Shown here piece after piece: positions 1,283-33,342 of a stretch of DNA of 46,314 nt; position 1 is the stretch's first letter, and each line of letters starts with the position of its first letter. The position numbers were made by a program, and so were the translations under genes. The stretch is from an uncultured Gemmiger sp. (GTDB lineage Bacteria; Bacillota; Clostridia; Oscillospirales; Ruminococcaceae), in NCBI GenBank assembly GCA_944382835.1, contig CALWNP010000018.1:1-46314 (forward strand), in the 5' to 3' direction. The notes beneath the pieces are model-generated. The model worked only from the letters and a program-made list of their open reading frames with translations. It did no database searches and was not told the DNA's origin.

Positions 1283-2386
1283 TTACTGGCCGGCGTGCTC
1301 CTTGCGGAACTGTTCCATAAAGACCACCAGTTCGTCAATGGCCTTGGGCGGCATGGCGTTGTAGATGGACGCCCGCATACCTCCCACCAGGCGGTGACCC
1401 TTGAGGTTGACGAAGCCGGCGTCGGCGGCCGCGGCGCAGAACTCCTTGTCCAGCTCCGGCGTGGGGCTGGTGAAGGTGACATTCATGATGCTGCGGTAGC
1501 GGTGCTCCACCGGGTTGTGGTAGAAGTCCTGGCTGTCCAGATAATCGTAGAGGACCTTGGCCTTGGCCTCGTTGATCTTCTGCATCTCGGTCAGGCCCCC
1601 CACCTCTTTTTCCAGGTAGTCCATGACCAGGCCGGTCATGTAGATGCACCAGCAGGGCGGGGTGTTGTACATGCTGTTGCTTTTGAGCAGGGTGGTGTAG
1701 TTCATCATGGTAGGGATCTTTTCGGGGGCGATGCCCTTGGCGCTGTGGCCCAGCAGGTCCTCCCGGATGATGGCCACCGCCATGCCGGCGGGGGCGACGT
1801 TCTTCTGGACGCCGAAGTAGATGCAGCCGTACTTGGTCACATCCACCGGCTCGGAAAAGATCATCGAGCTCATGTCCGCCACCAGCGGGATGCCCTCCAC
1901 CTGGGGCACCTCCACAAAGCGGGTGCCGAAGATGGTGTTGTTCTGGCAGATGTGGATGTAGCTGGCGTTGGGATCATACTCCACCGCCTTCACATCGGGG
2001 ATGTAGGTGAAGTTGCGGTCCTTGCTGGAAGCCGCAATCCGGGCGGTGCCGAACTTGGCACCTTCCTCGGCAGCCTTCTTGCTGAAGTTGCCGGTGACCA
2101 GATAGTCGGCGGTGCCGGTGGTCATGAAGTTCAGGGGCACCATGGCAAACTGCTGGGTGGCGCCGCCCTGGAAAAAGCCGATCTTGTAGTTGTCGGGGAC
2201 GTTGAGCACCCGGCGCATGGCGGCCTCGGTGTTCTGGATGATCTCGTCAAACCACTTGCTGCGGTGGCTCATCTCCATGACGCTCTGGCCGGAGCCGTGA
2301 TAGTCCAGCAGTTCCGCCTGGGCAGTTTTGAGAACCGGTTCGGGCAGCATCGAGGGGCCCGCGCTGAAGTTATATACTCTTGCCAT
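1283..2386 (-). CDS. serC: Phosphoserine aminotransferase (SerC)
   Basis: PLP-dependent enzyme that converts 3-phosphohydroxypyruvate and glutamate to phosphoserine, the second step of serine synthesis. It begins with the family hallmark MARVYNFSAGPSMLPEPVL. It continues through FFQGGATQQFAMVPLN, and YFGVQKNVAPAGMAV carries the PLP-binding lysine. The 367 residues match the family. In-frame ATGs exist 9 and 12 bases upstream, but they would sit directly on the AAAAGG Shine-Dalgarno, so the ATG of MARVYNF was chosen. The gene is first in the serC-serA unit. No serB phosphatase is nearby, so phosphoserine phosphatase must be encoded elsewhere. Confidence 0.96.
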   Translation of the reverse strand: MARVYNFSAGPSMLPEPVLKTAQAELLDYHGSGQSVMEMSHRSKWFDEIIQNTEAAMRRVLNVPDNYKIGFFQGGATQQFAMVPLNFMTTGTADYLVTGNFSKKAAEEGAKFGTARIAASSKDRNFTYIPDVKAVEYDPNASYIHICQNNTIFGTRFVEVPQVEGIPLVADMSSMIFSEPVDVTKYGCIYFGVQKNVAPAGMAVAIIREDLLGHSAKGIAPEKIPTMMNYTTLLKSNSMYNTPPCWCIYMTGLVMDYLEKEVGGLTEMQKINEAKAKVLYDYLDSQDFYHNPVEHRYRSIMNVTFTSPTPELDKEFCAAAADAGFVNLKGHRLVGGMRASIYNAMPPKAIDELVVFMEQFRKEHAGQ

Positions 2387-2413
2387 ATCTTCCATCATCC
2401 TTTTATCAATCTT

Positions 2414-2484
2414 CCGCCGCGTTCCGCTGAGGCGGCGGGCTCGTGACGTGACTTTATTATACGTTTCCCCACCCGGCAGGGCAA
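2414..2484 (-). promoter_or_regulatory. serC promoter and leader hairpin
   Basis: On the minus strand TTGCCC (2479-2484) and a consensus TATAAT (2456-2461) are separated by 17 bases, about 70 bases before the serC start. Between promoter and ribosome site the leader can form a CCGCCGC/GCGGCGG hairpin (2414-2420 with 2432-2438). A weaker second promoter, TTCTAC-17-TATTTA, lies further upstream at about 2567-2595. Confidence 0.7.
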
Positions 2485-2548
2485 CGAAAACCACGCCGTC
2501 AAAACACCGAAAAACCATGCGCTTTATCCCCACAGAAAAGCAAAAGAG

Positions 2549-2675
2549 CACAAATGTCTTTTCATTAAATACAATTTATTTTACATTTGTAGAAGATAAG
2601 GCCCGAAAAATCACCAAATTTGCCGAGGCGTCTTTGTCTATTTTGCATTCTTGCCTTTTTTCTACCACAGATGTA
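2549..2675. promoter_or_regulatory. Three ACAnnTGT dyads, candidate operators for the BlaI-like repressor
   Basis: CACAAATGTC (2549-2558), TACATTTGTA (2582-2591, perfect dyad) and CACAGATGTA (2666-2675) share the ACAnnTGT core. The TACA/TGTA dyad is the known core of BlaI/MecI operators. The third copy overlaps the -10 of the repressor's own promoter. The second overlaps the -35 of the weaker upstream serC promoter. Repressor identity and promoter overlap are seen in the sequence; actual binding is inferred. Confidence 0.55.
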
Positions 2676-2679
2676 AAAT
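2651..2679 (+). promoter_or_regulatory. Promoter of the BlaI-like gene
   Basis: TTGCCT (2651-2656), 17 bases, then TAAAAT (2674-2679), about 40 bases before the GTG start. An ACAGATGT dyad covers the -10 region, which fits autorepression. Confidence 0.6.
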
Positions 2680-2720
2680 ATTTATGCGATATTTCCCCAC
2701 AGTTGTAGGAGGTATGTACT

Positions 2721-3113
2721 GTGAACAGTTTATCCCACAGTGAGGAGCAGGTGATGGCGGCGCTCTGGGCCTGCGGCAAGCCCGCCTCCCGGCGCCAGAT
2801 TGCCGAGCGGCTGCCCGACGAATGCCGGTGGGCGGACTCCACCCTGCTGAACTTTCTGCTCCGGCTGGAGCGCAAGGGGTTTGTGCGGCCGGACAAGCAG
2901 GGCAACAAGAACATCTACACCCCGCTGGTGCGGCGTACCACCTACTGCGGCGCCGTGACGGCGGAGCACCTGCAGACGCTGTACGGCGGCGACCTGCGGC
3001 AGCTGGTGGCGGCCCTGGCCGACACTGGGCGGGTCAGCTACGCCCAGATGGAGCGGCTGGCCCGCTGGCTGGACAACCGGGTGGCCGAAAGCCCCGAGTA
3101 CGACTACGACTGA
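2721..3113 (+). CDS. BlaI/MecI/CopY-family transcriptional repressor
   Basis: A 130-residue winged-helix protein. The N-terminus (LSHSEEQVMAALWACGKPAS), the recognition-helix region (WADSTLLNFLLRLERKGFV) and the beta-wing (NKNIYTPLVRR) follow the BlaI pattern, with a C-terminal dimerisation helix pair. The start is GTG with AGGAGG eight bases upstream; a nearby ATG at 2714 runs into a stop at once. No BlaR1 sensor protease is next to it, so its inducing signal is unknown. It is divergent from serC-serA, and operator-like dyads lie in the shared region. The targets may be itself and the serine genes, or a distant locus. Confidence 0.85.
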   Translation: MNSLSHSEEQVMAALWACGKPASRRQIAERLPDECRWADSTLLNFLLRLERKGFVRPDKQGNKNIYTPLVRRTTYCGAVTAEHLQTLYGGDLRQLVAALADTGRVSYAQMERLARWLDNRVAESPEYDYD

Positions 3114-3148
3114 AAAGCCGCCCGGCTGCGAAGAGGCAGCCGGGCGGC
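3113..3148 (-). terminator. Terminator between converging genes
   Basis: A perfect 13-bp GC-rich stem (GCCGCCCGGCTGC at 3117-3129 with its complement at 3136-3148). Read on the minus strand it is followed by TTTT, so it mainly ends the minus-strand membrane-protein transcript. It also lies directly after the BlaI-like stop codon. Confidence 0.75.
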
Positions 3149-3161
3149 AGAAAAGACAATC

Positions 3162-3578
3162 TTATTGGGCGGTGTTCTGGCTCTCGGCAAAGGTCTGTGC
3201 CCACTGGGCGATGGCCTCCCCGTCGGCAGCCCGGGTGTGGTAGCCCTTGCCGTCCACTTCCAGATAATTGCCGCAGACCAGCACCTGGGTCTGGGTGCCG
3301 TCGTGCTTGTAGAGGGTCAGCGAGACGCTCTGACCGCTGGGCATCTCCTTGCTGGGCAGGTAGACCACCGCTTTGCCCAGCAGCTTGACCAGGGCTGCGG
3401 TGTCATCCCCGGTGGAGGTGGCACTGATCCCCGGCGGGGTGACGGTGATGTCCACATGGTCGATGTCCTTGGAAGAAAGATAGATAAAGGTACGGGTGCC
3501 CAGCAGCAGCCGGATCACCACCAACGCCGCCACCAGTACAATGGCGATCAGGATGTTTTGCCTGGTACGTTTTGACAT
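3162..3578 (-). CDS. Membrane-anchored protein of unknown function
   Basis: A 138-residue protein with a short basic N-terminus (MSKRTRQN), one hydrophobic helix at about residues 8-27, then a polar, beta-rich region exposed outside the membrane. That region has an alternating pattern (HVDITVTPPG, SVSLTLYKHDGTQTQVLV). No catalytic motif or lipobox is visible. It looks like a small anchored extracytoplasmic domain. GAGGAAG lies a few bases before the ATG. It is downstream of sdaAA by 39 bases on the same strand and may be co-transcribed with it, but no link to serine metabolism can be read from the sequence. Confidence 0.7.
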   Translation of the reverse strand: MSKRTRQNILIAIVLVAALVVIRLLLGTRTFIYLSSKDIDHVDITVTPPGISATSTGDDTAALVKLLGKAVVYLPSKEMPSGQSVSLTLYKHDGTQTQVLVCGNYLEVDGKGYHTRAADGEAIAQWAQTFAESQNTAQ

Positions 3579-3617
3579 GACAACTTCCTCATTTCTGATC
3601 TTACAGCCCAGCGGAGG

Positions 3618-4502
3618 TTATGCCTCCTCCTGGGCCATGGTCACAATCTCCCGGATGGCCTGCCCCGTGGGGGTACCGGCCAGGCCGCCGATGCCGGTTT
3701 CCCGCAGGTCCCGGCTCATGGCGGCCCCCACCTCGGCCATGGCGTCGATGACCTCGTCGGCGGGGATATGCCCCACCACGCCGGCCAGCGCCATATCGGC
3801 GGCGCTCACCGCATTCATGGCCCCGATGACGTTGCGCTTGATGCAGGGGATCTCCACCAGCCCGGCCACCGGGTCACAGACCAGTCCCTCCAGATTGGTC
3901 AGCGCCATGGCGAAGGCCTCGGCACAGGCTTCGGCGGTACCGCCCTTCAGATAAACCAGGGCGGCGGCCGCCATGGCGCTGGCAGCGCCCACCTCCGCCT
4001 GGCAGCCACCCTCGGCGCCGGCCAGGGTGGCCCGGGCGGCAATGACCTGCCCGAATCCCGCCGCCACATACAGGGCCCGGCAGACGGCCTCCTCGTCGGC
4101 CAGCCCGGCCCGCCACAGCGGCAGCAGCACCGCCGGCAGCACCCCGCAGCTGCCCGCGGTGGGGGCGGCTACGATCCGCTTCATGCAGGCGTTGCACTCG
4201 GCGGTTTTCAGCGCCTCGGCCAGCACCTGGTTCAGGTAATCCCCGCCCAGCAGCAGCCCAGCCCGGGCCGCCGCCTCCACCTTGGCAGCGTCACCGCCGG
4301 CAAAGCCGCTGTTGGAGCGGTCCTCCTCCCGGTACTCGGCGCTGGTGCGGCACATCACCGACCACATCCGGTGCATTTCGGCTAGGGAATCCTCCCGGGT
4401 CAGGCCGCTCTCGGCCAGGTCGCTGCGCAGAATCACCTCGTGCAGCGGCAGATGCTCCGCCTGGCAGGCGGCCAGCATCTCCCGCACCGATGGATATGCC
4501 AT
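3618..4502 (-). CDS. sdaAA: L-serine dehydratase, iron-sulfur alpha subunit
   Basis: Alpha subunit of the anaerobic-type two-subunit L-serine ammonia-lyase, which converts serine to pyruvate and ammonia with a 4Fe-4S cluster. The cluster-associated cysteine motifs are visible (CNACMKRIVAAPTAGSCG, CDPVAGLVEIPCIKRN), as are the glycine-rich SDH-alpha blocks. Length 294 residues is normal. GGGAGG precedes the ATG. It lies 12 bases after the beta subunit, so the two are expressed together. With serCA next door, the locus carries both synthesis and breakdown of serine. Confidence 0.95.
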   Translation of the reverse strand: MAYPSVREMLAACQAEHLPLHEVILRSDLAESGLTREDSLAEMHRMWSVMCRTSAEYREEDRSNSGFAGGDAAKVEAAARAGLLLGGDYLNQVLAEALKTAECNACMKRIVAAPTAGSCGVLPAVLLPLWRAGLADEEAVCRALYVAAGFGQVIAARATLAGAEGGCQAEVGAASAMAAAALVYLKGGTAEACAEAFAMALTNLEGLVCDPVAGLVEIPCIKRNVIGAMNAVSAADMALAGVVGHIPADEVIDAMAEVGAAMSRDLRETGIGGLAGTPTGQAIREIVTMAQEEA

Positions 4503-24975: not shown

Positions 24976-26157
24976 TCAGCGCAGAGCCGCCGGGCGAAGC
25001 CCGCCGGTGGCCACCGCGTCGGCCTGGCGGGAAACCGAGAGGACAATGCCCATCTCCCCCAGCAGCATCATCAGGCTGGTGCCCCCCGAGGAGAAAAAGG
25101 GCAGGCTGATGCCGGTGTTGGGGATGGTGTTGGTGACCACCGCAATGTTGAGCACCGCCTGCATGATGACCTGGACCACAAAGCCCACCACCAGCAGAGC
25201 GCCGAATTTGTCCCGGGCCCGCACCGCAATGGACATCCCCCGCAGCAGCAGGAGCAGAAAGAGCAGGATCACCAGGGCTGCCCCCACAAAGCCCAGCTCC
25301 TCGCAGAGGATGGAGAAGATGAAGTCGTTCTGGGGTTCGGGGACATAGAGGTATTTCTGCCGGCTGTTGCCCAGCCCCAGCCCTGCCGCCCCGCCCGAGG
25401 CGATGGCGTAGAGGCTCTGGATGGTCTGGTGGCCCTCCCCCAGGGGGTCGGCGAAGGGGTCCTGCCAGGAGGCCAGCCGGTCCGCCGCATAGGGCACCAG
25501 CTCGGGCAGCAGAATCACCGCCGCTGCAATTCCCGCCAGGCCCAGCCCCCCGGCCAGGCCGAACCATCGGAGGCCGGTGCCCCCCACAAACATCAGCACC
25601 GCCCCGATGCCCAGGATCAGCAGGGTGCCCGAAAGGTGGGGTTCCAGCAGCATCAGCACCGTCACCGCCCCCAGGATCACCCCGAAGGGAAGTACCCCGG
25701 TGGAGAAGGTCTTCATCCGGTCGTGGTTCAGCGAGATGATATGGGCAAAGACCAGCACCACCGAAAACTTGGCAATCTCGCTGGGCTGCAGAGTGCCCAG
25801 CCCCGGCAGCACCAGCCAGCGCTTGCAGCCGTTGTACTCCGGCATGAAGAGGACGATGGCCAGCAGGACCAATGAGACCCCCATCAGCGGCCAGGCCAGC
25901 TTGTGCCAGATGTGGTAATCCACCAGCGAGGCGGCGTACATGGCACTGACCCCCAGCGCCGCAAAGAGCAGCTGGGGCCGGATGTAGGTGTAGGCGTCCC
26001 CCCGGCGGTAGAGCGCCACCGCGTACCCGGCGGAGAAGAGCATGAGCAGGCCGTAGGCCAGCAGGAGAAGCAGCAGAATCAAAAAGGGCAGGTCCAGCGC
26101 CGGCTGGGCCGCCACCCGGCGGCGCAGTTCCGCCAGACGGTTTCTGGGTTCGGACAT
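24976..26157 (-). CDS. ftsW: FtsW/RodA/SpoVE-family peptidoglycan glycosyltransferase
   Basis: A SEDS-family enzyme that polymerises lipid II, 393 residues with about ten transmembrane helices. Blocks include DLPFLILLLLLLAYGLLMLFSAGYAVA, then YNGCKRWLVLPGLGTLQPSEIAKF (family signature with the conserved QPSE), a loop with LASWQDPFADPLGEGHQTIQSLYAIASGG, and NTGISLPFFSSGGTSLMMLLGEMG near the end. FtsW is favoured over RodA by the QPSEIAK and PFFSSGGTS forms. The ribosome site GGAAGGGGG is itself the 3' arm of the hairpin that follows the upstream gene. Confidence 0.92.
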   Translation of the reverse strand: MSEPRNRLAELRRRVAAQPALDLPFLILLLLLLAYGLLMLFSAGYAVALYRRGDAYTYIRPQLLFAALGVSAMYAASLVDYHIWHKLAWPLMGVSLVLLAIVLFMPEYNGCKRWLVLPGLGTLQPSEIAKFSVVLVFAHIISLNHDRMKTFSTGVLPFGVILGAVTVLMLLEPHLSGTLLILGIGAVLMFVGGTGLRWFGLAGGLGLAGIAAAVILLPELVPYAADRLASWQDPFADPLGEGHQTIQSLYAIASGGAAGLGLGNSRQKYLYVPEPQNDFIFSILCEELGFVGAALVILLFLLLLLRGMSIAVRARDKFGALLVVGFVVQVIMQAVLNIAVVTNTIPNTGISLPFFSSGGTSLMMLLGEMGIVLSVSRQADAVATGGLRPAALR

Positions 26158-26164
26158 ACAAAAA

Positions 26165-26199
26165 CCCCCTTCCCCGTCTATTGTACGCGGGAAAGGGGG
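26165..26199 (-). terminator. Terminator-like hairpin directly before ftsW
   Basis: On the minus strand CCCCCTTTCCCG pairs with CGGGGAAGGGGG (one T-G pair), followed by five T residues and then, two bases on, the ftsW ATG. The loop contains TACAAT (26180-26185), a possible -10 box. The 3' arm is the only plausible ftsW ribosome site, so hairpin formation would both stop upstream transcription and hide the site. Confidence 0.8.
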
Positions 26200-26209
26200 A
26201 TCTTAGTCA

Positions 26210-29200
26210 TCAATAGCTGGTCAGGGTGGTGCCGGGATAGTAGTGGGTCAGGATGGAGGCATAGTCCCAGCCGTTCTGGGCATAGCCCACCGCGCCCCAC
26301 TGGCTCATGCCGCAGCCGTGGCCGTAGCCGTAGACATCAAAGATGAAGCAGTCCAGCCCGGCGTCATAAGTAAAGGTGAAGCACTGGCTGCGCAGGCTGC
26401 GCCCGTCCACGCTCTGGCCGGCGGTGAGGTTTTCCCGGAACCAGCGGCCGGAGCAGGTGGTGTTGGGGCCCTCGTCGGGGCCAATCTGCATCTGGGCCAC
26501 CCAGCCGTACTGGTTGGCCGACAGGATCTTGAACCAGTTGTTGGGGTCCACCCCCGACAGGTCGATGCCCAACTCGGCCAGGATGCGGTCCTGCAGGGTC
26601 TGGCGGGAGAACCGGGCACAGCCGGTGTTGTTGCCGTTGGTGTTCCAGTTGGTGGCCACGCTCTGGTCATAGGGGCTGTCCACCGCCTGGAGCCAGGGCC
26701 GGTCGGTGCCCCAGACATCCGCCGCCGAGGCGGTGCCGGTGGAGGCCGAGGCGAAATAGGGGGTGAAGCAGACGCTGCCGTTGTAGGTGATCAGCACATG
26801 GGCCACCTCCTGAGCCGCAGCGGTGGCCGCTGCGCTGGGGCTGGTGCCCGCCACCGAGGGGTAGCCCCCCTGGCTGAGGATCCAGCAGTGGGCCGCCACA
26901 CACTGGGCCTTGTAGGCCTCGGCGGGGGCGCCGTCCCCCAGCTCATTCTGGGCGATCATGGCCAGGCACTGGACCAGGTCCATGGTCTGGGCGGTGCCGT
27001 TCATCGTCACATTGATGGTTTCGCCGCTGCTGCCGGTGGGTTCGGTGCCGGTCTGTCCGGCGCCGTCCACATTCAGCCCGCCGCTGCTCTCCTCCTGGGG
27101 AGTGGGGGTGGGCGCCGCGCTCTGGGCAGGGGCCGCTGTGGGGGTGGGTGCCTGGGTGGGGGCCGGTGTGGCCACCACGCTTTCCAGAGAGACCGTCTGC
27201 TCGGGCAGTTCCCCCTCAGCCCCCTTGGTGATCTGGGTTTCCACCGCGTTGGCGTCCCCGGCCACATCGGTCAACCCCGCCAGCAGCTCGCTGGTGGATT
27301 GGGCCAGGGCGTGGGCCTCGGCCGCCAGGGCATCGGCGTCAAAGGTGGGTTCCTCCACCGCCTCCTCCTGGGCCGAAGCCTGCTGGGCGGGGGCTGCCTG
27401 GGCCGGCTGGGCGGTGAAATCCGCCAGCGCCTGGGCCAGCAGGGCGGCAGCATCGGTCTGCCCCTGGGCCAGGGCTGCGGGCAGCAGCGGGTTTTCCGCC
27501 GCCCCGATGGCCGAGGTATCCAGCTTGGCGTCCTCCCCCTCGGCGATGAGCCGCCCGGTGACCCACAGGCGGGTGCCCGGGGTTTCCCCGTCCGACACCA
27601 GGGTCAGGAAGGAGGCCCCGGTGCCCACCTCCACCCCGGTGGTGTAGAGGCTGCGGATCTGCGCCCCCAGCACAAAGTCCAGATAATCATAATAGTTGGA
27701 CAGGTCGGTGAAGGCCGCCGGGTCAAAGGGGTTGGCGGAATCCGCCGGGTCGGCGTAGTAGACCGCCACCACCTTGTAGCGGTAGGTGGCGCCGGGCAGA
27801 TAGAGGGTGAATCCACTGTTCTGGCGGAAGGTTTCCAGATCGGCAAGGCCGGCCAGACGGCTGCCGCCGCAGTCCAGCACTGTGTTGGAGGGCTGGGCAC
27901 TGCCCAGATAGCTGGTTCCGGGCATCCGGGCCGCCGCCTCCTCCTTGGGTTCGGCGTCCTGGCCATAGACGAAGAAACCGTCCTGGCCCGAGAAGCCCAG
28001 ATAGCCCCCCACCCCGTCCAGCTTTTGCAGGGCGTTGTCCAGGTAGGCGGTGGCGCTCTCATCGTAGGCGGCAGTGCCGTAGGTGCGCACAGAGGGCTTG
28101 CTGCCCAGGTCGCTGCGCAGGAAAAGGAAGATGCCCACCGCAACCCCCGCCACCAGCAGCACCAAGAAGAGCATTCCCAGAATGGTGGCCCGGCGGCGCC
28201 GCCGCTCGGTCTTTTCGATCATGGCCAGGCTGCGGTTTTTGATGCTGGCTGCGGCCGTCGGCGCGGATGGAGCGGTTTTGGCATGTTTGGTGCGGGAAGA
28301 CCGGCGTTTTTTCTCCGGCGGGTCGGGCTCATCGTCCTCGTCGTCGGCAAACAGACGGCTGGCCGCCCGCTGGAATTCCTCGGCGCTCTTGGGCGGCTGG
28401 GCGTCGTCCGCCGCCTGGGCCGCCGCAATGGCTTCAGGGTCCAGCCCGGCGGAGAAATCGGGAATCTCCCCGTCCAGGATGGAGGAGGGCGCCTCGGGTT
28501 CCGGCGCCGCAACACCCCGGGCGGCCCGGGAAGCTGCCGCGGCCTCCGGCCCCGCCGTGGTGATCTCCATGGGATCGGGCAGGGGTTCCTGCTCCGGGGC
28601 CGGGGTGCTGGCCGGGGCCTGTTCAAAGGTGATGGTGCCCAGGGGGGCGGTGTCTGTGCTGGAAGCCGGGGTGCGCAGGGTCCGCCGGGTGGGGGCGGGC
28701 TGTTGCTGGGGCAGCGGGGTGTCGAAGTCCATCATCGGCTCAAAGCTGCTGTCGGCGGTTTTGGGGGCGCGGCGCCGCAGGGAAAACCGGGTGGTATCCC
28801 CCTTGGTCTGGCCCTCCTGGGAGACGATGAGCAGCGGGCGCTCGTGGCCGGGGCGGAAGGTGATGGTGGAGCCGCTGAACCGCAGCCCCAGCGCCCGACG
28901 GCGGGCCAGGTCCAGGATGTTGTTGGCGATGGCGGCATCGCTGAGCTCGGGGCTGACGGCGCAGGCCACCGCGCTGCGCTTGTCGCAGAGCAGCACAAAG
29001 GGAGCCTGGCCCACCGTGGCCGGCATATAGACCACGGCATAGTCGGCGTTGCCCACCGCCAGGGCCAGCTGAGCCCGCCCGGCGGCGGCCTGCAGCACAT
29101 CGCCGGGGAATTTTTGCAGCAGGTTTTCGGGGGTGACGATCTTGCGGGCGTTCTCGGGGTTGGCATAGGTCTGGGTGCCGTAGTCAAAGACCGCCTCGCT

Positions 29201-29557
29201 GTGCTCCAGCGGGCGCAGCAATGCCCCCACCAGCCGGCCGGTGGGTTCGTCCGCCGCCACAATCAGGCGGCGCTTTTTGACCAGGGCATCCAGGGTGGCC
29301 TGGGCCAGGCTGATCTCGCCGGTGCCGTAAACCGCATCCCCAAAGCGGGCGCGCAGTTTCTGGGCCCACTTTTCGCAGTAGTCCTCGGCCATGGCCCGGG
29401 TGGGCGCGCTGACCTGGATACAGACGGCAAACTCGCCGTCCCGCTCCAGCAGACGCAGGCCGGGGCAGCCCTCGGCGCGGGCGGTGCGCAGCACCGAAGC
29501 CACCTCGGCGGAAGACAGGCCAAAGACCCGCAGGATGCGCAGTTGGGTTGAGAGCAT
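26210..29557 (-). CDS. Composite envelope protein: CinA-like, TM, sortase B-like, SpoIID/LytB
   Basis: 1115 residues. Residues 8-225 align by eye with the middle and C-terminal parts of the CinA encoded just upstream, but its AESCTGG active site reads ADEPTGR. A disordered Pro/Ala/acidic stretch runs to 450. One transmembrane helix (458-480) follows, with the basic RRRRR on the inside. Residues 500-672 follow the class B sortase pattern (TYRYKVVAVYYAD, RSLYTTGVEVGTGASFLTL), yet His and Cys are replaced by Gly564 and Asp656. After a low-complexity linker, 848-1112 is a SpoIID/LytB domain with candidate catalytic Glu872 (IAQNELG) and the GYGHGCGMSQWGA motif. SpoIID domains cut peptidoglycan glycan strands. 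A role at the septum is inferred from the ftsW neighbour. Confidence 0.85.
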   Translation of the reverse strand: MLSTQLRILRVFGLSSAEVASVLRTARAEGCPGLRLLERDGEFAVCIQVSAPTRAMAEDYCEKWAQKLRARFGDAVYGTGEISLAQATLDALVKKRRLIVAADEPTGRLVGALLRPLEHSEAVFDYGTQTYANPENARKIVTPENLLQKFPGDVLQAAAGRAQLALAVGNADYAVVYMPATVGQAPFVLLCDKRSAVACAVSPELSDAAIANNILDLARRRALGLRFSGSTITFRPGHERPLLIVSQEGQTKGDTTRFSLRRRAPKTADSSFEPMMDFDTPLPQQQPAPTRRTLRTPASSTDTAPLGTITFEQAPASTPAPEQEPLPDPMEITTAGPEAAAASRAARGVAAPEPEAPSSILDGEIPDFSAGLDPEAIAAAQAADDAQPPKSAEEFQRAASRLFADDEDDEPDPPEKKRRSSRTKHAKTAPSAPTAAASIKNRSLAMIEKTERRRRRATILGMLFLVLLVAGVAVGIFLFLRSDLGSKPSVRTYGTAAYDESATAYLDNALQKLDGVGGYLGFSGQDGFFVYGQDAEPKEEAAARMPGTSYLGSAQPSNTVLDCGGSRLAGLADLETFRQNSGFTLYLPGATYRYKVVAVYYADPADSANPFDPAAFTDLSNYYDYLDFVLGAQIRSLYTTGVEVGTGASFLTLVSDGETPGTRLWVTGRLIAEGEDAKLDTSAIGAAENPLLPAALAQGQTDAAALLAQALADFTAQPAQAAPAQQASAQEEAVEEPTFDADALAAEAHALAQSTSELLAGLTDVAGDANAVETQITKGAEGELPEQTVSLESVVATPAPTQAPTPTAAPAQSAAPTPTPQEESSGGLNVDGAGQTGTEPTGSSGETINVTMNGTAQTMDLVQCLAMIAQNELGDGAPAEAYKAQCVAAHCWILSQGGYPSVAGTSPSAAATAAAQEVAHVLITYNGSVCFTPYFASASTGTASAADVWGTDRPWLQAVDSPYDQSVATNWNTNGNNTGCARFSRQTLQDRILAELGIDLSGVDPNNWFKILSANQYGWVAQMQIGPDEGPNTTCSGRWFRENLTAGQSVDGRSLRSQCFTFTYDAGLDCFIFDVYGYGHGCGMSQWGAVGYAQNGWDYASILTHYYPGTTLTSY

Positions 29558-29601: not shown

Positions 29602-30882
29602 TCAAAAGGTTTCCTCCAGCAGTTCGGCGTCGGGCACCGGCAGCTCCAGGGCCATCCGGCGCAGCAGATCCAGGGCGTAGAGGGCGGCGCGGGTGCGGAT
29701 GATGGCCCGTTCCTGGTAGCCGCCCAGGTTCAGCCGCATCACCCAGGTACGGTGGCTGCGCCGGTCGGCGCCGGCCAGATAGACGGTGCCCACCGGTTTG
29801 CCCGGCAAAGCCCCGCCGGGGCCGGCCAGGCCGGTGATGCCCACCGCCAGCTCGGCCCCCGAGGCGTTGACCGCCCCCCGGGCCATGGCCACGGCCACTT
29901 CTGCCGAGACCACGTTGTACTGTTGGATCAGCGCCGGGTCCACCTCCAGCAGCTGGGTTTTGGCGGCCTCGGCGTAGGTGACAAAGCCGTAGCCGAAGAC
30001 CTCGCTGGACCCCGGCACGTTGGTCAGTCGTTCGGCCACCATGCCGCCGGTGCAGCTCTCGGCAGTGGCGGCATGCAGCCCCCGCTCCCGCAGCACCCGG
30101 ACCACGGTGTATTCCAGGCCGGGCACGTCAACGTCATAGGCGTTGTCCCCCAGCCGCTGCCGCAGCAGGGCAATCCGGTCCATGCAGGCGGCCTCGGCCT
30201 GGTCGGCGGTGGCGGCCCGGGCGGTGACCCGGATCTCGCTCTCTCCCACCTTGCAGTAGATGGCGATGGTGGGGTTTTCGCTGTGGAAGAGCTCCCCCAC
30301 CTTGGTGGCGATGCTGCTTTCGCCCCCCAGCACCCGCAGGGTGCGGGAGTGGATGACGCAGTTCTGCCGCTGTTCCAGGGCGGGGCGGACGTCTTCGGCC
30401 CACATCGCCTTCAGCTCCCGGGGAACCCCCGGCATCAGGACGGCACAGTGGCCGGCCTCGTCCTCAAACCAGGCCCCCGGCGCGGTGCCGTGGGCGTTGG
30501 GCAGCTTATGGCCCCGGACCGGCACCATGGCCTGTTTGCGGTTGTTGGGGGTGGGGGTGCGGTTGGTCCGGGCGAAGAAGGCCAGGATCTTGTCCCACTC
30601 CTCGGGGTCAAAACGCAGGGTATCCCCGAAGGCCTCGGCCACCGTCTCCTTGGTCAGGTCGTCCTCGGTGGGGCCCAGCCCGCCCGAGAAGACCAGCAGC
30701 TCGCTGCGGGCCCGGGCCTCGGTGACCAGCGCCCGCAGGCGTTCCACATTGTCCCCGATCACATGCTGATGCAGCACCGAGATGCCCAGGTCAGCCAGTT
30801 CCCGGCTGAGAAACTGGGCGTTGGTGTTGAGGATGTCCCCGAGCAGCAGCTCGGTTCCCACACAGATGATCTCTGCGGTCAA
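29602..30882 (-). CDS. cinA: CinA-family protein (MoCF-like domain plus NMN deamidase domain)
   Basis: 426 residues from a TTG start that has AAGGAGG seven bases upstream; a TTG 30 bases earlier in the same frame would place that site inside the gene. The N-terminal molybdopterin-binding-like domain is complete (AEIICVGTELLLGDILNTNA, FSGGLGPTEDDLTKE, LMPGVPRELKAMW). A linker domain follows (TLRVLGGGESSIATKV). The C-terminal CinA domain keeps ATAESCTGGMVAERLT and AVGITGLAGPGG, so it should hydrolyse NMN, with ADP-ribose pyrophosphatase activity in the first domain. It lies between thiI and the composite protein, whose N-terminus looks copied from it. Confidence 0.95.
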   Translation of the reverse strand: MTAEIICVGTELLLGDILNTNAQFLSRELADLGISVLHQHVIGDNVERLRALVTEARARSELLVFSGGLGPTEDDLTKETVAEAFGDTLRFDPEEWDKILAFFARTNRTPTPNNRKQAMVPVRGHKLPNAHGTAPGAWFEDEAGHCAVLMPGVPRELKAMWAEDVRPALEQRQNCVIHSRTLRVLGGESSIATKVGELFHSENPTIAIYCKVGESEIRVTARAATADQAEAACMDRIALLRQRLGDNAYDVDVPGLEYTVVRVLRERGLHAATAESCTGGMVAERLTNVPGSSEVFGYGFVTYAEAAKTQLLEVDPALIQQYNVVSAEVAVAMARGAVNASGAELAVGITGLAGPGGALPGKPVGTVYLAGADRRSHRTWVMRLNLGGYQERAIIRTRAALYALDLLRRMALELPVPDAELLEETF

Positions 30883-30912
30883 GAAAGCCCCTCCTTTCGG
30901 GCACAAAGGCAA

Positions 30913-32106
30913 TCAGAATTCCGGGTCGTCCCCGATGTGAATGGGAATCCGTTCCACATTCTCGGCTGCGGCCTGTTCCAGCTCGGCCAGGCCGGGCATG
31001 CCGGCCTCGGCGGCCTCGATCTCGTCCAGGCTGGGCCGGGTCTTGGGATGGGGCGGAGTAAAGATGGTGCAGCAGTCCTCGTAGGGCTCAATGGAGGTCT
31101 CAAAGGTTCCGATCCGCCGGGAGAGGGCGACGATCTCGTTTTTGTCCATCCCGATGCAGGGGCGAAGTACCGGCAGCGACTGGGCCGCATCGGTGCAGAC
31201 CAGCGCTGCCATGGTCTGGCTGGCCACCTGGGCCAGGCTTTCGCCGGTGATCAGGGCCTCCAGCTCACATTTCCGGGCCACCATGGCGGCGATGCGCAGC
31301 ATGCTGCGGCGCATGAGGACGGTAAAGAGGACATCGGGGGCGTTGTCCCGGATGTACTCCTGGGGTTTGGTGTAGGGCACCACAAAGAGGGTGCAGTTGC
31401 CGGTGTACTCGCTCAGTTCCCGGGCCAGGGCGCGGACCTTGAGCTTGGCCCGGGGGCTGGTGTAGGGCGGGCTGGCAAAGTGGATGTGGTGCAGCGCCAG
31501 GCCCCGCCGGGCCATGCACCAGGCCGCCACCGGGCTGTCAATGCCGCCCGACAGCAGGTTGAGGGCCCGGCCGCTGGTGCCCACCGGCAGGCCGCCGGCG
31601 CCGGGGGTCTTGGGCCCGTGGATGTAGGCGCCGTGTTCCCGGATTTCCACCATGATCTCCAGCTCGGGCTCATGGACGTTCACCCGCAGATGGGGGTGCT
31701 TGGAGAGCAGGAAGGCCCCCAGCTCCCGGCAGATGTCGGGGCTCTTCATGGGGTACTGCTTGTCCGCCCGCTTGGCCTCCACCTTGAAGGTGCGGATGCC
31801 CCGCAGGGTCTGCCCCAGATAGGCTTCGGCGGTCTGGCAGATGGTGTCAAAGTCCTTGTCGCAGCAGGCGGCGCGGCTGAGCTTGACGATGCCAAACACC
31901 TTGGACACCCGCCGGGCGGCCTCCTCCATGTCCAGATCCTCCTCCAGAGGCTGGATGTAGACGGTGCTCTGGGAGGAGCTGACTTTGAACTTGCCCAGGT
32001 TTTCCAGGCGGTAGCGGATGCTCTTGGCCAGCCGTGCCTCAAACTTGCTTCGGTTCAGCCCCTTGAGGGTCATCTCCCCCTGATAGGCCAGAATAATCTC
32101 TTTCAT
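30913..32106 (-). CDS. thiI: tRNA 4-thiouridine synthase (ThiI)
   Basis: 397 residues. A ferredoxin-like N-terminus (MKEIILAYQGEMTLKGLNRSKFE) and THUMP domain lead to the PP-loop ATP site LLSGGIDSPVAAW at about residue 185. Further conserved blocks are HFASPPYTSPRAKLKV, ITGESLAQVASQTM, LRPCIGMDKNEI and CCTIFTPPHPKTRP. There is no C-terminal rhodanese domain, as in most Firmicutes, so sulfur must come straight from the cysteine desulfurase encoded 18 bases upstream. Likely jobs are s4U8 in tRNA and possibly thiamine thiazole synthesis. Confidence 0.95.
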   Translation of the reverse strand: MKEIILAYQGEMTLKGLNRSKFEARLAKSIRYRLENLGKFKVSSSQSTVYIQPLEEDLDMEEAARRVSKVFGIVKLSRAACCDKDFDTICQTAEAYLGQTLRGIRTFKVEAKRADKQYPMKSPDICRELGAFLLSKHPHLRVNVHEPELEIMVEIREHGAYIHGPKTPGAGGLPVGTSGRALNLLSGGIDSPVAAWCMARRGLALHHIHFASPPYTSPRAKLKVRALARELSEYTGNCTLFVVPYTKPQEYIRDNAPDVLFTVLMRRSMLRIAAMVARKCELEALITGESLAQVASQTMAALVCTDAAQSLPVLRPCIGMDKNEIVALSRRIGTFETSIEPYEDCCTIFTPPHPKTRPSLDEIEAAEAGMPGLAELEQAAAENVERIPIHIGDDPEF

Positions 32107-32124: not shown

Positions 32125-33267
32125 TCAAATATGCTGCAATTCCGCCAGCCCCTGGCGCAGCGCCGCCAGAAGAGCGTCCACGTCCTCCTCGGTGTTGTCG
32201 GCACAGAAGCTGACCCGCAGGGCGGTGTCGATGGTTTTGGGATCGCATCCCATGGCGGCCAGGGTGTGGCTGGGTTCGCCCCGGTCACAGGCGCTGCCGC
32301 TGGAGACATAGATCTGCCGGTCGGACAGATAGTTGAGCATGGTCTGGCTCTTGACGGCGTGCTGGGAGAAGTTGAGTACCTCCGGCACCCCGTCGTCGGG
32401 GGAGTTGATGGTCACCCCGGGGATCTGGGCCAGCCCCGCCCGCAGCCGGGCGTTGAGGACCGCCGCATGGGCCGAGGAGGCCTTCATCGCCTTGGCCCCC
32501 CGCTCGGCGGCCACCCCCAGCCCCACCGCGTAGGGCAGGTTTTCGGTGCCGGGGCGGATGCCGTTCTCCTGACCGCCGCCCAGAAAGGGGGGCAGGATGT
32601 GGTAGCCCTCCCGCAGATAGAGGGCGCCGATCCCTTTGGGGGCGTGGATCTTGTGGCCGGAGACTGACAGGCTGTCCACGTTTTTGAGGCAGAGGGGCAC
32701 CCGCAGCCAGGCCTGGACCGCGTCCACATGGACGGCGGTGCGGCTGTTGCGGGCCTTGACCGCCGCCGCCAGCCGGGCGATGTCCTGCCGGGCACCGGTC
32801 TCGTTGTTCACCGCCATGCAGCAGACCAGCACGGTGGAGCGGTCCACCGCCGCGGCCATCCTGTCCACATCCAGCCGGCCGTCGGGGCCTGGGTTGATCT
32901 CCACCACCTCAAACCCCTGCTGGCCCAGATTGCGGATGGGCAGCTGGGCGCTGGGATGTTCAAAACCAGAGACCACAATCTTGTTGCCCCAGCTGCGGCG
33001 GGGGGCCACGGCGCCCAGGATGGCGATGTTGTTGCCCTCCGAGCCGCCGGCGGTGAAGGTGATCTCCCGCGGGCGGCAGCCGATGGCCTTAGCCACCTTG
33101 CTGCGGGCGGCAGCCAGCGTCTCGTGCGCTTCGATGGCGGGGCCGTAGAGACTGGACGGGTTGGCCCAGACTCCGCGGATCGCCCCGTCGATGGCGTCTG
33201 CCACCTCCGGGTCCACCATGGTGGTGGCAGCATTGTCAAGATAATGCAGTTGTGCATCCAAACGCAT
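32125..33267 (-). CDS. Cysteine desulfurase (NifS/IscS family)
   Basis: PLP enzyme that removes sulfur from cysteine as a persulfide; 380 residues. It starts MRLDAQLHYLDNAATTMVDPEVADAI. It has TAGGSEGNN, the lysine motif SVSGHKIHAPKGIGALY and the persulfide loop VSSGSACDRGEPSHTLAAMG. AGAGGGAG lies eight bases before the ATG. The gene heads the operon ending at ftsW and directly precedes thiI, matching the known pairing of a dedicated desulfurase with ThiI. Confidence 0.95.
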   Translation of the reverse strand: MRLDAQLHYLDNAATTMVDPEVADAIDGAIRGVWANPSSLYGPAIEAHETLAAARSKVAKAIGCRPREITFTAGGSEGNNIAILGAVAPRRSWGNKIVVSGFEHPSAQLPIRNLGQQGFEVVEINPGPDGRLDVDRMAAAVDRSTVLVCCMAVNNETGARQDIARLAAAVKARNSRTAVHVDAVQAWLRVPLCLKNVDSLSVSGHKIHAPKGIGALYLREGYHILPPFLGGGQENGIRPGTENLPYAVGLGVAAERGAKAMKASSAHAAVLNARLRAGLAQIPGVTINSPDDGVPEVLNFSQHAVKSQTMLNYLSDRQIYVSSGSACDRGEPSHTLAAMGCDPKTIDTALRVSFCADNTEEDVDALLAALRQGLAELQHI

Positions 33268-33313
33268 AAAACGCGCTCCCTCTTCTACAAAATTACAAAC
33301 TGATACAGAGTAA

Positions 33314-33342
33314 ATTATACACATTCCCCCCGGCAAACACAA
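33314..33342 (-). promoter_or_regulatory. Promoter of the desulfurase-thiI-cinA-SpoIID-ftsW block
   Basis: Minus-strand TTGTGT (33337-33342), 17 bases, TATAAT (33314-33319), about 45 bases before the desulfurase ATG. The -35 is enclosed by CCCC and GGGG runs that could pair weakly. Confidence 0.75.

Follow-up and report, generated by a model that had tools for sequence, protein, structure and literature searches.

The window analysed here is a stretch of 46,314 nucleotides (nt) from an uncultured Gemmiger sp. (contig CALWNP010000018.1, assembly GCA_944382835.1). On its minus strand, a single gene encodes a protein of 1115 amino acids (aa) in which a CinA-like part, a disordered segment, a transmembrane (TM) helix, a class B sortase-like part, a linker and a SpoIID/LytB domain follow one another. 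Family and profile searches confirmed this order, already proposed in a preliminary description, and support a predicted membrane-spanning protein made of two enzyme-derived modules without catalytic residues and a SpoIID domain with its Glu. The gene and its parts are the following:

26210..29557, minus strand: fusion gene, 1115 aa, pseudo-CinA, disordered segment, TM helix, pseudo-sortase B, linker and SpoIID/LytB (open reading frame; Pfam and NCBIfam searches)
29324..29539, minus strand: CinA KH domain, residues 7-78 (PF18146; hhalign against intact CinA)
28883..29311, minus strand: CinA PncC domain (nicotinamide mononucleotide (NMN) deamidase) without nucleophile, residues 83-225 (family and profile searches, alignment columns)
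29234..29254, minus strand: ADEPTGR, residues 102-108, replacing AESCTGG (motif comparison, profile alignment)
28238..28771, minus strand: low-complexity, presumably disordered cytosolic segment, residues 263-440 (composition, poor conservation)
28436..28483, minus strand: conserved short motif SILDGEIPDFSAGLDP, residues 359-374, within the disordered segment (pattern search)
28118..28189, minus strand: TM helix, about residues 457-480, preceded by an Arg/Lys-rich run (sequence; hydropathy scan of homologues)
27512..28036, minus strand: class B sortase-like domain that lacks His and Cys, residues 508-682 (profile evidence, alignment columns)
27026..27505, minus strand: extracellular low-complexity linker, residues 685-844 (sequence; linker dN/dS, see below, highest in most of 14 pairs)
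26213..27025, minus strand: SpoIID/LytB domain, residues 845-1115 (TIGR02669; profile match to solved SpoIID)
26942..26944, minus strand: Glu872, which pairs with the Glu of solved SpoIID (alignment)
26291..26323, minus strand: GHGCGMSQWGA, residues 1079-1089 (sequence, alignment)

Two modules without catalytic residues and a SpoIID/LytB domain

By searching Pfam, we found CinA_KH at residues 7-78 (E = 9.9e-6; 26.0 bits, slightly below the cut-off of 27) and PncC at residues 83-175 (E = 0.0015, below cut-off), while residues 5-175 matched the NCBIfam CinA model NF001813 at 3.9e-15, far below its equivalog cut-off. When compared profile to profile with the KH-PncC regions of 32 intact CinAs, the N-terminus scored 99.7% over 219 columns. 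Both the KH and the PncC fold are assigned by sequence profiles only. The protein begins at the KH domain, and Pfam gave no match to a MoCF (COG1058) domain in it. In a 33-row alignment of CinA-like sequences, the column of the PncC Ser holds Glu in 32 rows, Ala in one and Ser in none, and the module earlier described as lacking its catalytic residues indeed misses the nucleophile in every aligned copy. The Lys column is variable (Lys in 7/33), and nine other residues at and near the former active site do not vary at all (D103, T106, G107, H119, E121, P179, V182, G183 and Q184; 33/33). For AtCinA, the excerpted text of PMC5384747 gives S31 and K63 as the catalytic dyad, with either Ala mutant inactive; the residue roles also draw on PMC4246079.

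Taken on its own, the window sequence gives a weak signal for the sortase-like part (TIGR03064, E = 0.12), and the Pfam Sortase model did not match the window protein. With a 31-row profile, the best match among solved structures was the sortase B 4ux7, presumably SrtB of C. difficile, at 8.5e-7, but many antibody chains rank among the sortases from 2.1e-5 onwards. Compared with 24 active SrtB proteins, the same profile scored 98.2% over 177 columns; the SpoIID profile, used as a control, scored 0.2%. The catalytic Cys is missing from all 31 rows and the catalytic His present in only 1/31, which bears out the earlier reading of a second module that lacks its catalytic residues. Seven sortases of the window genome score above the Pfam cut-off, and the fusion's sortase-like domain is not one of them. 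By the positive-inside rule, the TM helix ahead of this domain would have its N-terminus inside and its C-terminus outside.

Within the disordered segment, the pattern [DE][ILV]P[DESTA]F is present in 26 of the 32 Gemmiger open reading frames searched, and LDxDIPDFSA stands amid otherwise poorly conserved sequence; this motif may bind a partner. We considered the IPDF motif as a mimic of the FtsZ tail and dropped the idea, the C-terminus of the genome's FtsZ (...NDLLSILNKRS) being unlike it.

The C-terminal domain was recognised as SpoIID/LytB: TIGR02669 matched residues 858-1113 at 1.7e-31 (110.1 bits, above the curated cut-off of 83.3), and the C-terminal profile matched three solved SpoIID at 5e-24 to 6e-23. 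The Pfam SpoIID model stayed below its cut-off (16.0 vs 23), as did the sporulation SpoIID equivalog TIGR02870 (98.8 bits vs 234.75). In agreement with the earlier proposal that this domain keeps its Glu and the GHGCGMSQWGA motif, Glu872 and His1080 are each conserved in 28/28 aligned sequences, and the Glu is kept in all 22 aligned full fusions, window included. Glu872 aligns with the Glu of 5i1t, which we take to be SpoIID of C. difficile. Since E101 is given as the catalytic Glu of C. difficile SpoIID in the excerpted text of PMC6221140, we infer that the Glu of 5i1t, and with it Glu872, corresponds to E101. The window genome has a separate SpoIID (G000:C52; 231 bits vs the sporulation model cut-off of 234.75) together with SpoIIP and SpoIVA, which makes the window protein one more carrier of a SpoIID domain.

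A SpoIID/LytB protein at a relative's locus (L033:9241-10761) shows an arrangement resembling a circular permutation, its GHGVGMSQWGA end preceding the Glu-bearing part: window residues 1071-1113 match its residues 235-278, and 857-1023 match 302-465.

Integrity, selection and genomic setting

The fusion is not an artefact of assembly. A match was found in all 34 same-genus genomes, as one full-length open frame in 29 and as partial pieces in the remaining 5, and two of the genomes with an intact frame are single-contig (G004 and G026). Gemmiger formicilis ATCC 27749, recorded as the type strain, also carries it (L085). Because the single frame recurs in 29/34 genomes, we rejected misassembly, which the preliminary description had named as a possible objection.

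We then calculated the ratio of nonsynonymous to synonymous substitution rates (dN/dS) for the 14 closest Gemmiger pairs. The ratio was 0.04-0.11 in the CinA-like part, 0.07-0.32 in the SrtB-like part and 0.02-0.14 in SpoIID, where constraint is strongest in most pairs; the linker and the disordered parts evolve fast. These low ratios indicate that the catalytically dead domains are maintained and not decaying, and they rule out a recent pseudogene. An antisense frame of 1102 aa (26243-29551, plus strand) covers almost the whole fusion gene and is probably a by-product of G+C-rich codon use.

Around the fusion gene, the following features were found:

29602..30912, minus strand: intact cinA (MoCF-KH-PncC), 44 nt upstream of the fusion gene (NF001813, 455 bits, cut-off 379; motifs)
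30913..32106, minus strand: thiI (TIGR00342)
32125..33342, minus strand: cysteine desulfurase gene, csd (PF00266; NifS/IscS-like)
24976..26157, minus strand: ftsW/spoVE-type gene, 52 nt downstream of the fusion gene (PF01098)
26159..26205, minus strand: terminator-like hairpin lying between the fusion gene and ftsW, with a U tract (-27.7 kcal/mol, z = -4.65, 0/200 shuffles as good)

From the position next to ftsW, the preliminary description had proposed a role in septal wall cleavage, and this did not hold up well. The ftsW gene lies directly downstream in 14 of the 25 Gemmiger loci that could be scored (7/32 being too short), and none of the 11 sister-genus loci whose fused gene is complete showed it within the ~3.5-4.6 kb covered downstream. 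The septal idea is weak because this linkage is partial and because the hairpin separates the two genes. A simple terminator scan of the window does not list this hairpin. The 3' arm of the hairpin extends into the probable ribosome-binding region of ftsW.

Relatives at the csd-thiI-cinA locus and the order of events

The architecture given in the preliminary description stood, but it had overlooked both the intact cinA directly upstream and the fusions of relatives in which the CinA and sortase motifs are intact. Since such fusions exist, the window protein is not an isolated oddity. We compared loci of relatives (L numbers), among which L111-L150 are a non-random sample of 40 chosen from search matches and therefore yield no frequencies. 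Among these, thiI is present in 40/40 and csd in 36/40, so that the csd-thiI-cinA setting can be treated as one locus.

Several forms are found there. Separate, adjacent cinA, srtB and spoIID genes occur at L153, L154, L179, L182 and L187, and at L184 a separate cinA lies upstream of a SrtB-SpoIID fusion (1789-4308, 839 aa). A CinA-TM-SrtB protein with intact motifs adjoins spoIID at L033, L134, L136, L137, L139, L140 and L152, as well as at L150, where the N-terminus is short. Single-gene CinA-TM-SrtB-SpoIID proteins with active sortase motifs were found at L132, L133, L138, L147 and others, and L131 and L141 combine an intact CinA with a dead sortase in a single gene. Next comes the form seen in the window, a separate CinA beside a degenerate CinA-TM-dead sortase-SpoIID protein, found in Gemmiger and at L111-L113, L115-L118 and L122. 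At L119-L121, the neighbour of the degenerate fusion is a PncC-only gene with the motif AESLTGG:

L119:6820-7341: PncC-only gene, 173 aa
L120:4419-5111: PncC-only gene, 230 aa
L121:7038-7559: PncC-only gene, 173 aa

Finally, seven loci (L124-L130) keep the degenerate CinA-TM alone, sortase and SpoIID being gone. Counted over L111-L150, the forms are CinA-SrtB-SpoIID at 7 loci, CinA-SrtB at 12 and degenerate CinA-TM at 7, with cinA alone at a contig end at 1; at 11, a degenerate CinA-SrtB-SpoIID lies next to a gene for CinA or PncC, 2 of these being cut by contig ends. Many CinA-to-SrtB single frames without a stop are among the matches listed for 386 genomes of the family. Among the matches listed for 341 genomes from the class, there is no such frame; since 14 of the 341 belong to the order itself, this is a weak sign that the fusion is absent outside the order.

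Some relatives carry further sortases. A second, separate srtB follows the CinA-SrtB fusion at L035 (4059-4919) and at L042-L044; in the tree it clusters with the fused sortase and is, by this placement, a duplicated sortase. In a same-family genome, L034:6336-13635 holds a run of four genes for class B sortases (375, 328, 865 and 348 aa), after which comes a SpoIID gene, and the 865-aa sortase has a 400-aa N-terminus of unassigned family ahead of its TM helix.

In a tree of intact CinAs (quick method, Shimodaira-Hasegawa-like approximate likelihood ratio support), the free CinAs of the genera with degenerate fusions form a clade with L131 and L141 (100), within which the L131/L141 pair (99) stands beside the rest (91). 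The degenerate copies form a single group (100/99) on a long branch, which leaves their place among the intact CinAs unsettled; the sortase tree may carry the same long-branch problem, and eight duplicate loci were omitted from both trees. The reduced groups L124-L126 and L127-L130 are placed apart, and sortase and SpoIID were therefore probably lost twice.

These patterns suggest an order of events. The ancestral state would have been cinA, srtB and spoIID side by side behind csd-thiI. Fusion would have come next, and then, in turn, the sortase would have died, SpoIID would have been joined on, CinA would have been duplicated and the fused CinA would have died. The free copy would have kept the chemistry, and the fused copy would have been retained for a non-catalytic task. 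On this comparison of sequences, the window protein is a derived, late form of a wider family, with a dead sortase, a duplicated CinA and a dead fused copy.

We also searched all CinA copies in 47 genomes (G numbers) and scored the fused copies for 43 of 45 candidates; G275 and G462, which each have a free CinA, fell short of the scoring thresholds, and G050, G058 and G485 gave no MoCF match. Where a second, free CinA is present, the fused copies show neither the MoCF motif GGLGPTxDD (0/16) nor the GxAGP loop (0/16). Where the fused CinA is the only copy found, the MoCF motif is kept in 21/24 (domain present), the loop in 24/27 and the Ser in 27/27.

Possible functions and meaning

Our best explanation, to which we give about an even chance, is that the CinA fold, non-enzymatic here, docks to a partner or to itself in the cytosol and so holds SpoIID in place. 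The protein would be a single-pass membrane protein whose active-looking, glycan-cutting SpoIID/LytB domain lies on the wall side, joined by the remains of sortase B to a cytosolic CinA-derived module. This module would act as a platform for docking or dimerisation, with the free CinA as a possible partner, and would position the lytic domain; the dead sortase would act as a stalk or a wall-facing binding surface.

Several observations weigh against this explanation and the history behind it. The seven reduced forms without SpoIID argue that wall cutting is not a necessary task of the CinA part. In a second lineage, 10/16 degraded fused CinAs retain both Ser and Lys, so deamidase activity may persist there. 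No second CinA was found for the degraded copies of G453 (91% complete genome) and G707 (76%), nor in G454 (97% complete), where the MoCF motif is lost. The supported branches force just two independent changes, which makes the association between decay and a free CinA suggestive, not significant. Lastly, the mirror-tree comparison gave no clear sign of interaction between pseudo-CinA and CinA: the partial correlation is 0.16 within Gemmiger and 0.81 over all 34 loci, where it is equally high for SpoIID. We therefore set aside co-evolution of the two as evidence, this comparison being uninformative.

Three other explanations were weighed. It seems unlikely to us that the pseudo-CinA is a ligand sensor whose pocket would bind a nucleotide (NMN-, nicotinamide adenine dinucleotide (NAD)- or ADP-ribose-like) and signal through the TM helix to switch SpoIID, which, if true, would couple NAD state to wall cutting. 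Its former active site does carry a new set of invariant residues, not random change, its dN/dS is very low, and CinA domains of T. thermophilus bind such nucleotides according to the excerpted text of PMC4246079; however, the substrate-binding residues of AtCinA and TtCinA (Ser, Lys, TGxAGP loop and the Glu of KH GIGES) are mostly lost, and the long disordered stretch between pocket and helix hinders direct signalling. We are just as doubtful about a membrane tether, in which the pseudo-CinA would pair with the intact CinA encoded beside it and recruit this CinA to the membrane, and the domains on the wall side would be secondary and dispensable. Consistent with such a tether, an intact CinA (a PncC-only gene at L119-L121) lies directly upstream in the loci with degenerate fusions, the seven reduced loci retain pseudo-CinA-TM alone, and the excerpted text of PMC4246079 describes CinA as a dimer. 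Yet the free CinA of the second lineage is located elsewhere in the genome, SpoIID is under the strongest constraint in most pairs, and the mirror-tree lends no help.

That gene fusion has left the fused domains as mere spacers, and that the protein is simply a membrane-anchored SpoIID/LytB paralogue, appears quite improbable: SpoIID alone has intact catalytic residues, and fast evolution of the linker and disordered parts would fit, but the pseudo-CinA has a dN/dS near that of SpoIID in 14/14 pairs and outlives the loss of SpoIID at seven loci. This persistence after the loss of sortase and SpoIID also indicates that pseudo-CinA-TM has a role of its own.

Compared with known systems, the fusion shares the full domain, the Glu and the GHGxGMSQWGA motif with SpoIID/LytB proteins (TIGR02669) such as the SpoIID of the DMP engulfment complex, but it differs from SpoIID of that complex by a spore_II_D score far below cut-off and by its extra cytosolic and sortase parts. 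It shares KH and PncC homology with CinA (COG1058-KH-PncC; NMN deamidase/ADP-ribose pyrophosphatase), yet has neither MoCF nor the Ser nucleophile and is membrane-anchored. As in class B sortases, its sortase-like domain sits after an N-terminal signal anchor and aligns over 177 columns, but it has lost His and Cys and the N-terminal half of its sequence profile has diverged. The CinA-TM-SrtB(-SpoIID) proteins of relatives (e.g. L033, L035, L132 and L147) have the same domain order at the same csd-thiI locus; unlike the window protein, they keep active sortase motifs and, in L033, L035 and others, a complete CinA. In the pneumococcal cinA-recA-dinF-lytA operon, cinA is likewise tied to a wall hydrolase gene, the amidase gene lytA, and CinA may help to bring RecA to the membrane (excerpted text of PMC12029793); there, the hydrolase is of another family, with no fusion and no sortase.

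In agreement with the earlier remark that no description of the architecture was known, we found no description in the open-licence literature of CinA with sortase and SpoIID, of CinA with SpoIID or with class B sortase, of a fused class B sortase in Ruminococcaceae, or of the relatives' CinA-TM-SrtB(-SpoIID) proteins; articles returned for pairings of sortase, pseudoenzyme and SpoIID, or for CinA and sortase as words, were unrelated by title.

A bolder proposal, which we hold tentatively and think somewhat unlikely, is that these proteins form an undescribed class of envelope machine, uniting an NAD-salvage enzyme, a transpeptidase and a glycan cutter in one chain. CinA would have become a receptor or docking pseudoenzyme in two lineages once a free CinA took over the chemistry, and NAD metabolism or a CinA-bound partner would control the site of wall opening.

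CinA is widespread, and little explains its link to competence, stress and drug tolerance. The repeated fusion of CinA, membrane helix, sortase and wall cutter hints, by the Rosetta-stone argument, at a joint function of CinA and the envelope, and the intermediate forms, from separate genes through active and dead fusions to reduced proteins, make this link directly testable. The series is also a clear example of enzymes that became structural parts within one chain, and the window protein shows how three neighbouring genes may become a single wall-linked chain.

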